Source: Candidatus Peribacteria bacterium (GTDB lineage: Bacteria; Patescibacteriota; Gracilibacteria; Peribacterales; Peribacteraceae). Taken from it: a stretch of 43,416 nt of DNA. The stretch is from contig SICS01000005.1 of assembly GCA_009691305.1 (NCBI GenBank), forward strand, positions 1-43,416, read 5' to 3'. The notes below the pieces were generated by a model, which saw nothing but the letters and a program-made list of their open reading frames with translations, was not told where the DNA came from and made no database searches. This document shows positions 13,144 to 32,620 of this stretch, in pieces; position 1 is the first letter of the stretch, and each line of letters opens with the position of its first letter. A program made the translations under genes and the position numbers.

Positions 13144-13158
13144 GTGCGCCCGTAGTTC
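13144..13158 (+). repeat. 15-bp copy of the tRNA-Arg 5' end (GTGCGCCCGTAGTTC)
   Basis: Identical to 13246-13260, which runs into the intact tRNA. Confidence 0.85.
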
Positions 13159-13247
13159 CCGCCTTCGCTCCTTCGGAGCTTCGGCGGGCAGGCAGCCTTC
13201 CAGGCTTCTCCTCGTTACGGGCTCTCTCGATCTTTCTTCGTTATCGT

Positions 13248-22538: not shown

Positions 22539-22545
22539 ATTTCGG

Positions 22546-22590
22546 TTCCCGCCTTCGCTCCTTCGGAGCTTCGGCGGGCAGGCAGCGAAA
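22546..22590. repeat. 42-nt repeat identical to one at about 13157-13198
   Basis: GTTCCCGCCTTCGCTCCTTCGGAGCTTCGGCGGGCAGGCAGC at both sites. Confidence 0.85.
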
Positions 22591-23496: not shown

Positions 23497-23682
23497 ATGG
23501 GCAAGAGACCTACCCCTAAAAAGCGAAAGGCCAAGTCCAACGGGCGGACCCAGCACAGCATTTACCTGTTGAAGGAAGTGCGTCGCCTGCGTAACCGCCA
23601 GAATTCGCCGTACGGTGGTCCGGTCCCTCCGAGGGATAGGGCGGAGAAGGCATTGGAGAAGATCACACGGGTGAAGGCCTGA
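23497..23682 (+). CDS. small basic protein, possibly divergent ribosomal protein L32
   Basis: MGKRPTPKKRKAKSNGRTQHSIYLLKEVRRLRN; next to nusB-rnc. Confidence 0.4.
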   Translation: MGKRPTPKKRKAKSNGRTQHSIYLLKEVRRLRNRQNSPYGGPVPPRDRAEKALEKITRVKA

Positions 23683-23761
23683 CGCCATTCCTCGTTACGT
23701 TCGCGTCTCCAACGCGAACTACTCGGAATGACAGCCGATGGTTTTCCGCTATGATTAGAGC

Positions 23762-23878
23762 ATGGCTCGTCGTCGTCACCTCTCCCGCATCGCTGTCATG
23801 CATCCCTCGATACGCTCGCCGCTCCGCAGCGAGCTACTCGGGATGACAGTGATGTCCCCCCCATTGTGTTATGGCTAG
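23762..23878 (+). CDS. 38-aa upstream ORF whose first 13 residues equal the NusB N-terminus
   Basis: TATGAT-N6-ATG; MARRRHLSRIAVM then repeat-encoded HPSIRSPLRSELLGMTVMSPPLCYG*; its stop overlaps the nusB start (ATGGCTAG). Confidence 0.6.
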   Translation: MARRRHLSRIAVMHPSIRSPLRSELLGMTVMSPPLCYG

Positions 23879-24275
23879 AAGGAGACATCTTTCTCGGATT
23901 GCGGTGATGCAGGTTTTATTTGAGCGCGAGAGGCATCCCTCGATGCTCCCGCCGGAGAAGGCTCTTGAAGCGAATGCGCATGAGCTGGGCGAGTACGATG
24001 GCGATTTTGCCCTGATGCTCTTGGCCGGCGTCTTGGAGAAGGAGCAGGAGGTCAAAGATGCGGTGCAGCTGAATGCCCCACAATGGCCGCTGGAGCGAAT
24101 GGACCCTATCTCCCGCTGCATCCTGATCGTCGGGGCATATGAGCTCCTCTTCAACAAGGACGCCCCGCCTGCGGTCGTCATGAACGAGGCCATCGAAATC
24201 GCTAAGGAATACGGTACGGAGGAGGGTGGGAAATTCGTGAACGGAGTGCTGAATGCCATTGCTCACGCTGGCTGA
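23871..24275 (+). CDS. nusB: transcription antitermination factor NusB
   Basis: MARRRHLSRIAVMQVLFE...RCILIVGAYELLFNKDAPPAVVMNEAIEIAKEYGTEEGGKFVNGVLNAIA. Confidence 0.9.
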   Translation: MARRRHLSRIAVMQVLFERERHPSMLPPEKALEANAHELGEYDGDFALMLLAGVLEKEQEVKDAVQLNAPQWPLERMDPISRCILIVGAYELLFNKDAPPAVVMNEAIEIAKEYGTEEGGKFVNGVLNAIAHAG

Positions 24276-30337: not shown

Positions 30338-32620
30338 ATGGTCCGTTTTTGCCCTTTTCCGTTCATCTGTGTCGCAATTGCCGCTTCGGCAGCGTTTGTC
30401 GGCCATGCCTCGGCGAGTCCGGTGATCAGCGAAGCCCACTGGGCAGGCTCCGACCTCAGTACGTCCGATGAGTGGGTGGAGATTGCGGGCTCGGGTGCGG
30501 GCTCGGGCTCGGAAGGGGGTATTACAACAATGTCCGGGTGGACGCTGACGTCGGTCAATTCGAGCGGGGTCGAGAACGTGATCTTTCGGTTTCCGTCCAC
30601 GGCCGAGATCCGTCCCGGCCAATTCCTCGTCGTCAGCCATTTCCCCGCCGCGCAGTCGCGACTCCTCGCCGAGCCCGCGTTTGTCGCAGCTTCCCTCTCG
30701 CTCCCCAACAGCAAACTGCTCCTCCGGCTCCGCGATTCGGCCGGTCAACTTCTCGACCAGGTGGACGACGGGGTGGGGGAGCCGTTTGCGGGAGAAAACA
30801 CGTCGAGCCCTCTGCTCAAAGCGAGCATGGAGAGGATTGATCTCACGAGGACGGGAACTGATGCAGGGAATTGGGTGACGTCGACGGAGATGGTTGGATG
30901 GAAAGATGGTGCTACGGGGATGCGGGGGACACCGGGATTTGCGCGGTCAACGCCCCCTCCCCTGACCTCATCCTCGCAGGCAAGTATGCCTGCGCTTAGC
31001 TCATCCTCGCAGGCAAGTATGCCTGCGCTTAGCTCATCCACATCATCCTGCATCTCACTCGATCCGTATTTCATCATCCAATCTGGCAACGCGATCGGCG
31101 TCGACAAAGTCACGCTCAACGTCCAAATCGGCACGCATGCGGGGTCGATCACGGGTGCCACCTGCACGGTCGACTTTGATGATGGCACGTCATCCACAAG
31201 TTGTAACCCTCCATCGCACACGTACGACGAGCCAGGGTCGTACACGATTTCCGCCGAGGTGAAAAATTCCTGCGGCACCATGGTGCGCACGATGCCGGTG
31301 GAGGTGAGGGCGAAGAGTGGGGCAGCATCATCACGGTCCTTGGCTTCCGGTGCGTCTGATGATGGCGAGATCTGGTCATTACAGGAGACACCGGGCTCTA
31401 CGGGAAATTTTCCGTTTGTCCTCTCCGCAGTTCTACCAAATCCTGCTGGGAAAGATTCGGGGAAGGAGTGGGTCGAAATCTCAAATATTTCGCCACAGAC
31501 GGCCAGTCTTGAGGGATGGGTTTTGCGGCTTCCCCATGCCAAAAAAGGAAAGTACACGTTCGGCGTGGTCGGGTTCAGCGTGCGTGAGAGCAAGCGGTTC
31601 CTGGCGAGCGAACTTGGCATGACGTTCGGAAATGATTCTGGGGAGCTCTCACTCATCAACCCCTCCGGCCAGACGGCGTCCGTTCTGTCGTGGACGAACG
31701 CGCGCGACGGCGTCATCGTTCGTCCCCAACGCAATTTTACAGGCAACATCCGTGCTCGCGTCACACATGTGATCGACGGCGACACGATCGACGTCTCCAT
31801 CGTCACGAGCGGCGGCAGCGACATCGGCGGCACCGAGCGCGTGCGCATGATCGGCATCGATGCGCCCGAAATCCACGCGTCCGACGAGCGCCAGCGAATG
31901 CTCGCAAAACGCGCGGGGGAATTTATCCGGAGTCTTCTGGAAGGCGCGGTCGTCACGCTTACTGGCGGCACCGATGCGCGTGATGCGTACGGCCGGTTGC
32001 TTGCGTACGTTGCGACGGAGGATGGCGATTCCGTCCAAGAAATGATCCTGCGCGAAGGTTTGGCTTCAGTCTATCTCCGGTACACATTTGCCAAGGAGAC
32101 AGAGTTTATTGGCTACCAGCGCGAAGCGCAGGAGGCGGGTGCGGGGGTGTGGGGGGTGACGGATAAAATTGAAAATGAAAAATTGAAAATTGAAAATATT
32201 CATATTTCGCAACTGGTGGTTGCTGATCATCCCAAGGAAGCGTCTTCAAGCTCACAAATTGTGGAGATTGTTCATCTGGAAAAATCTTCGTCGAGCAGCA
32301 AATCTTCCTCCTCCAAAAAGAAATCACCTACTCCCAAGCGCGCGGTCACTGTGAAAAAATCAGTAGCGGTTGCTATCGTCCGTGAAAACTCTTCATCTGC
32401 TGCGAATTTTTCTCCGCTCTCCGCAGACCTGCTCTCGATCCAGGATTTGATTGAGCAGCCGGAGGTTGGCGTCTCTTCATCATCTGCGATGTCCAATGAT
32501 AGTTCGGAGGTTTTGTCGGCACCTTCCACGCTGCCACTCATTTCGTTGGGTGTGATGATCACGGGGGTAGGCTCAATAAGTGGCCTCCTTGGATGGCTCA
32601 TTGCACGGAGAAAAACATAA
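30338..32620 (+). CDS. surface protein: signal peptide, lamin-tail-like domains, PKD-like domain, SNase nuclease, Ser-rich linker, C-terminal TM
   Basis: VISEAHWAGSDLSTSDEWVEIAG; PDPAGKDSGKEWVEISN-type second LTD; VDFDDGTSSTSCNPPSHTYDEPGSYTISAEV; VTHVIDGDTIDVS...RMIGIDAPEI...GRLLAYV; SLGVMITGVGSISGLLGWLIARRKT. Confidence 0.8.
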   Translation: MVRFCPFPFICVAIAASAAFVGHASASPVISEAHWAGSDLSTSDEWVEIAGSGAGSGSEGGITTMSGWTLTSVNSSGVENVIFRFPSTAEIRPGQFLVVSHFPAAQSRLLAEPAFVAASLSLPNSKLLLRLRDSAGQLLDQVDDGVGEPFAGENTSSPLLKASMERIDLTRTGTDAGNWVTSTEMVGWKDGATGMRGTPGFARSTPPPLTSSSQASMPALSSSSQASMPALSSSTSSCISLDPYFIIQSGNAIGVDKVTLNVQIGTHAGSITGATCTVDFDDGTSSTSCNPPSHTYDEPGSYTISAEVKNSCGTMVRTMPVEVRAKSGAASSRSLASGASDDGEIWSLQETPGSTGNFPFVLSAVLPNPAGKDSGKEWVEISNISPQTASLEGWVLRLPHAKKGKYTFGVVGFSVRESKRFLASELGMTFGNDSGELSLINPSGQTASVLSWTNARDGVIVRPQRNFTGNIRARVTHVIDGDTIDVSIVTSGGSDIGGTERVRMIGIDAPEIHASDERQRMLAKRAGEFIRSLLEGAVVTLTGGTDARDAYGRLLAYVATEDGDSVQEMILREGLASVYLRYTFAKETEFIGYQREAQEAGAGVWGVTDKIENEKLKIENIHISQLVVADHPKEASSSSQIVEIVHLEKSSSSSKSSSSKKKSPTPKRAVTVKKSVAVAIVRENSSSAANFSPLSADLLSIQDLIEQPEVGVSSSSAMSNDSSEVLSAPSTLPLISLGVMITGVGSISGLLGWLIARRKT
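30967..31032 (+). repeat. two perfect tandem 33-bp units inside the SNase CDS
   Basis: CTCATCCTCGCAGGCAAGTATGCCTGCGCTTAG x2; encodes SSSQASMPAL twice. Confidence 0.95.

Follow-up and report, generated by a model that had tools for sequence, protein, structure and literature searches.

Recoded duplicate gene ends beside REP-type palindromes at nusB and other genes of Candidatus Peribacteraceae

RESULTS

The nusB gene begins twice

In a genome of Candidatus Peribacteraceae the start of nusB is present twice, the two copies encoding one peptide in different codons with a REP-type palindrome between them, and truncated copies of other genes lie beside palindromes in the same manner. As judged from sequence comparison, we put at about even chances the reading that palindrome, spacer and replacement gene end form a unit that both interrupts a gene and restores it. 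The locus lies within a stretch of 43,416 nt (the window, meaning the whole of the DNA analysed) from a genome designated G000, placed in a family in which the named genomes are Ca. Peribacteraceae. G001 is of the same genus, and the other G numbers denote relatives.

All the features of the locus are on the plus strand. Starting upstream, a 61-amino-acid basic ORF (small61; MGKRPTPKKRKAKS..., 23497–23682) forms the conserved context of nusB. It is found upstream of the gene in many family genomes, and in each of the five relatives compared it aligns from end to end (identity 67–90%). Next comes a palindrome, REP1 (23686–23734), with a REP at the equivalent place in G001, and then a −10-like box (TATGATTAGAGC, 23750–23761) immediately 5′ to copy 1, giving a possible leaderless start. 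Copy 1 is a stub comprising nusB codons 1–13 (23762–23800), and is directly abutted by a second palindrome, REP2 (23801–23849), which has a foot of the CTAC/GATAC type and belongs to a dispersed family with >30 matches in the genome. The promoter-like box before the first copy and the palindrome directly after it are thus as the original prediction had described them. A spacer (23850–23870), dissimilar to the copy 1 promoter, leads into copy 2 (23871–23909), the recoded codons 1–13 with which the complete nusB gene of 134 amino acids (23871–24275) begins. Its NusB domain (PF01029) was matched by Pfam over residues 8–131 of 134 with E = 8.8e-30, and the gene is 89–91% identical to nusB of G001 and G002. 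The frame of copy 1 passes through REP2 as a 38-codon ORF (23762–23878), matched to no family in a Pfam search, and its TAG stop codon (23876–23878) falls within ATGGCTAG of the nusB start. Elsewhere in the window a 42-nt palindromic repeat of a family different from REP2 is present in two copies (13155–13196 and 22545–22586) that are 100% identical, and a 33-nt unit is repeated head to tail in two copies that are 88% alike (30956–31021).

Both copies translate to MARRRHLSRIAVM, and all of codons 3–12 are synonymously different (10 of 10), as had been pointed out when the duplication was proposed. The 13 nucleotide changes (10 at third and three at first positions) alter no amino acid; codon 2 (GCT) and both ATG codons are common to the copies. 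Chance resemblance of the nusB copies is excluded, because no other peptide of at least nine amino acids is present twice in the window with different codons. The peptide is near-invariant as the N-terminus of NusB in the family and its codons are saturated, so that the lack of any shared codon is in itself not remarkable. On average, a pair of nusB starts from the family has 3.8 of 10 codons in common; 1.2% of pairs share none, and none would be expected in 0.6% on independent draws with local codon usage. The nusB pair has the appearance expected of two copies that diverged separately under purifying selection; it is their adjacency that needs explaining.

The original prediction proposed a comparison of the locus in relatives. 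Among 74 genomes of the family, 47 of which were matched by the search pattern, two copies of the nusB start are found in G000 only. The single start of G001 is preceded by a REP and TATGATTTGAGC, and in G000 it is copy 1, not copy 2, that is preceded by REP1 and TATGATTAGAGC. A −10-like box directly before the start is absent from the other family nusB starts among those listed, G001 excepted. Because it has this G001-like context, copy 1 is probably at the ancestral start position, with REP2, the spacer and copy 2 lying inside the ancestral gene. Some caution is called for, as the codons of copy 2 are slightly more like those of G001 (31 of 39 nt) than are the codons of copy 1 (27 of 39). 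The upstream regions of family nusB and hisS genes (those listed) are mostly pyrimidine-rich without a clear Shine–Dalgarno site, and some have a −10-like box 5–8 nt before the ATG; leaderless starts may be common in these genes.

The same anatomy at other genes of the genome

G000 was scanned in stretches amounting to 1.06 Mb, nearly the whole genome. A scan of REP loci first gave two more pairs with identical peptides and different codons. In total at least 11 genes have one anatomy, consisting of an intact gene end, a short spacer, a REP-type palindrome and a truncated copy. The palindrome abuts the truncated copy in each case, with the spacer between palindrome and intact gene, and the peptides of the two copies are identical or nearly so in different codons. 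The duplicated end is N-terminal in nusB, msrA, hisS and ileS. It is C-terminal in RNase J, a glycosyltransferase/GtrA gene, an NrdJ-like gene (GATSGCS*), a SpoIID-like gene, sodB, an FAD oxidoreductase (C27 13488) and the C11 gene, which has no family assignment. Pfam supports the identities of msrA, RNase J, GtrA and the oxidoreductase, and gave no match for the C11 gene or the SpoIID-like piece; hisS, ileS, sodB and the NrdJ-like and SpoIID-like genes are what we take them to be from recognised motifs.

A palindrome-first search was too strict, and high-identity pairs in G000 are mostly tandem repeats. Some foreground pairs of the genome scan proved to be repeats within a protein and were left out. 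At a control distance of 1000–1260 nt there is one peptide pair of at least eight residues. The scan, with the peptide control in the window, rejects chance resemblance as the source of the copy pairs, and the scan also rejects the view that the duplication is a curiosity of nusB. Some readings in the original prediction are supported, while a recurrent, palindrome-linked event at many genes lay outside its view.

At C20 36205 (L187) of the same genome a gene end (FVNGVLMRITP*) is found twice, 103 nt apart, with three changes that are all synonymous and in adjacent codons; this is perhaps a young case of the same event. Tandem arrays with units of ~22–25 nt are found at C23 20908, at C41 2013 and at the end of C43, one being at a contig end, and are perhaps assembly breakpoints.

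There are 64 TGTCATCCCGAG-like ends in the 1.06 Mb. GTAG is present at the foot of the stem at gtrA, the SpoIID-like gene, hisS (on the reverse strand) and C27 13488, and absent from the palindromes at sodB, the nrdJ-like gene, ileS and C11. Five above-cut-off matches to the Y1 transposase family (PF01797, Y1_Tnp) were found in G000. No such duplications were found in 0.79 Mb of G032, where no GTAG double-stem palindromes were found. The inserts, at ~60–110 nt, contain no recombinase gene and have no room for one. The intact ORF uses the copy lying across the palindrome from the stub, i.e. a working gene end is supplied, presumably as part of a unit. In published work, members of the GTAG REP superfamily are found at the ends of ORFs (PMC3733652) and are cut by Y1 transposases, GTAG playing a part in the choice of site (PMC8266576).

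Junctions in other genomes of the family

Orthologues were sought in five relatives, then in the 74 genomes, and in further stretches. Ten genomes, from nine genera, have the same structure after codon 9 of hisS; 10 have it at the final nine codons of RNase J, a count that leaves out 15 loci of the least similar genomes. The empty site is often present in same-genus relatives of the carriers. At the 3′ end of RNase J in G068 (L364) the unit of gene end, spacer and palindrome is found twice in tandem before the final stub. The length of the hisS spacer is near-constant across genera.

In the genus g28 the replacement end of hisS is unlike the genus's own. The stubs of G083 and G080 match the native starts of their siblings at 0.81–0.93, that of G083 also carrying the siblings' promoter, and their intact ends match at 0.67–0.74, being unlike those of any insert-free sibling. 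Between carriers from different genera the intact hisS ends are 0.769 alike, compared with 0.673 for non-carriers (p = 0.0003). The import of a diverged gene end, one of the origins first considered, is thereby supported at hisS in g28; at nusB it is only inferred.

The polA start of G016 (L262, minus strand) is duplicated 79 nt apart (MKQLVLIDGH and MKHLVLIDGH), with the upstream ORF stopping inside the second start.

Divergence of the two copies

Both copies show the signature of purifying selection. Over 29 copy pairs pS is 0.87 (saturated) and pN is 0.10, a value that is lowered because the pairs were partly found by peptide likeness; for the hisS and RNase J pairs, which were found by position, pN is 0.11. 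For the G000 pairs alone pS comes out at 1.10, beyond 0.75, since residues with six codons are treated only crudely in the counting of sites. Even where a pair has few changes, nearly all of them are synonymous. Had the stub been neutral, its peptide would have altered, and therefore either the copies diverged as two functional ends or the stub is still selected. Synonymous saturation with low pN rejects the idea that the gene end was duplicated recently, as an identical copy, and that the stub then decayed. The same values reject an old duplication, one of the origins first suggested, if its stub is taken to be decaying.

Stub and intact end from one genome are more alike than pairs taken across genomes, and lineage-specific residues are present in both copies (S8 in hisS, V3/I6 in RNase J, and also in C11). 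Any donor is thus usually close, and a distant donor for all cases is rejected. Selection against homology, also suggested at the start, is at most weak: the G000 pairs share 24 of 95 codons and the pairs in other genomes 47 of 113 (42%), against an expected ~40%, and strong selection against shared codons is rejected. A consistent use of rarer codons in the intact copy was considered and dropped, since it applies to nusB, msrA, SpoIID-like and C11, and is reversed or mixed in RNase J and gtrA.

In inserts shared within a genus the stub peptide is kept while the spacers drift, although the counts are small. The RNase J insert common to G030 and G082, for example, has 22 differences in 104 noncoding positions with the stub peptide nearly unchanged. 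This hints at continuing use of the stub. Decayed stubs are found in G077, G079 and G062.

The reading frame of the N-terminal stubs

At the N-terminal loci the frame of the stub is open through the palindrome, and in 10 of 13 it stops between −25 and +20 nt of the restored start; polA of G016 also fits this pattern. The corresponding figures are 3 of 26 for control frames and 4.3 for shuffles. The p value of 0.00014 is optimistic, because the interval was set after looking and 10 of the 13 loci are the same gene. The relation of stop to start fits what termination–reinitiation would require, and coupling of this kind, suggested originally for nusB, thus gains statistical support in the N-terminal cases. 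In a published account of such coupling, the stop codon of the first ORF overlaps the start of the second or is close to it; here the upstream ORF differs in beginning with the first codons of the same gene (PMC6728339).

DISCUSSION

Origin of the duplicated ends

If the palindrome and the gene end do form a unit, a REP-type palindrome with a spacer and a replacement nusB start would have entered nusB at the boundary of codons 13 and 14. Codons 1–13 brought in by the cassette would restore the gene, and the original promoter, start codon and 13 codons would be left upstream as the stub. This would form a small ORF reading across the palindrome and terminating at the new start, where ribosomes may reinitiate. 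Events of the same kind would have affected many starts and ends of genes across Ca. Peribacteraceae, with hisS split repeatedly after codon 9 and RNase J repeatedly ahead of its last nine codons. We infer that related bacteria are the source of both palindrome and replacement end, and that the two arrive together as a single unit, either through transformation or through the activity of a REP/Y1 transposase.

The insertion of such a unit is suggested by the common anatomy of the G000 loci, the fixed junctions in hisS and RNase J, the tandem unit in G068, the promoter context that nusB copy 1 shares with the only start of G001, the Y1 matches in G000 together with the lack of both palindromes and duplications in the 0.79 Mb of G032, and the stub frames that stop near the new start. 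That the inserted part is the replacement end is favoured by the sibling-like stubs of g28 and by the hisS signature of carriers across genera. Against it, neither donor nor moving unit has been seen. Copies within a genome are the most alike and have lineage-specific residues in common, so that the replacement end is often not foreign, and nusB copy 2 is nearer to G001 than is copy 1. In addition some of the palindromes lack GTAG, and the within-genus inserts keep a stub peptide that a dead stub would not.

A serious rival, the one ranked nearest though we consider it unlikely, dispenses with a dedicated mobile cassette and invokes unequal, illegitimate recombination with related strains or species. 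Homology on one side would let an incoming gene end, with its own intergenic spacer and REP, take the place of the resident gene, and microhomology would join it on the other side at the edge of the REP, the resident end becoming the stub. The copies differ by as little as 1 nt (hisS of G088) and by as much as about one third of residues (sodB), like alleles of varied relatedness; a few bases at the stub–palindrome junctions are shared with the edge of the palindrome, and the two spacers have no similarity outside coding sequence. Random joins would, however, be scattered, whereas one junction codon recurs in many genera, as do the signature of the hisS end and its near-constant spacer length.

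Constrained old duplications are ranked next, and appear improbable. Tandem duplication of palindrome, spacer and gene end would have been followed by selection on both copies, the absences in relatives being losses; an upstream stub would act as a translated leader and a downstream stub would serve when the unit is deleted. The low pN in all pairs, young ones included, the closeness of own-genome pairs, the insert shared by G030 and G082 and the order of REP, spacer and start twice in tandem at nusB are all consistent with this. There is, however, no known reason to keep a stub past a stop codon (RNase J and sodB), some stubs have decayed, and the intact hisS end of g28 is unlike that of every insert-free sibling.

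Two other explanations have very little probability. Most genomes compared are metagenome assemblies and the palindromes are repeats, at which co-occurring strains might have been joined as chimeras, but independent assemblies from many genera have the same junction codon, including G030 (L418; a single contig of 1,248,026 bases) and G031 (L374; a contig of 1.07 Mb), and the few bases shared at the stub–palindrome junctions are too few for a graph misjoin. Equally hard to credit is a nusB-specific regulatory leader peptide that mimics the N-terminus of NusB, for example in autoregulation: the 38-codon ORF does overlap the nusB start by 8 nt, but in none of the other family genomes searched does nusB have it, and the same structure is found at unrelated genes and at gene 3′ ends.

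Implications and relation to known systems

REPs are common in bacteria, yet little is understood of how a gene-dense genome can take them up with its genes unbroken. A partial answer may adjoin each copy, in the form of the end of the split gene restored in other codons. The occupied and empty sites in relatives make palindrome movement testable from sequence, and the arrangement suggests a route by which genes could swap their terminal codons wholesale. For annotation it calls for caution, as a stub may be picked as the start of nusB, hisS, ileS, polA or other essential genes.

More tentatively, and with somewhat less than even confidence, the loci may represent a new class of minimal, gene-specific mobile DNA. 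These would be palindromic cassettes of ~100 nt at fixed codons near gene ends, whose recoded end leaves the host protein unchanged and which move from genus to genus by putting their own version in place of the resident gene end.

One likeness is to GTAG REPs and REPtrons, in which a REP is associated with a TnpA-REP/RAYT Y1 transposase. As far as the accessible parts of these sources describe them, such REPs are likewise dispersed short palindromes located between genes or at ORF ends, and are not reported to carry or duplicate a recoded gene end (PMC3733652, PMC8266576). Several palindromes of G000 have GTAG at the foot of the inner stem, and the genome has Y1 transposase genes; several others differ in lacking GTAG. 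In the open-access literature we came across no account of REPs flanked by duplicated gene ends; novelty is provisional because the search covered open papers only.

Gene-restoring integrative elements, such as e14 in icd and SCC in rlmH, also carry a copy of the gene end that restores the protein in different codons, with the original host end on the far side. Those elements are kilobases long and have recombinases, whereas the inserts here are ~60–110 nt and contain no gene. The palindromic elements of Rickettsia, in a reduced genome, are likewise located within or at the ends of protein genes. They add codons in frame, whereas the duplication of a gene end seen here leaves the main protein as it was.
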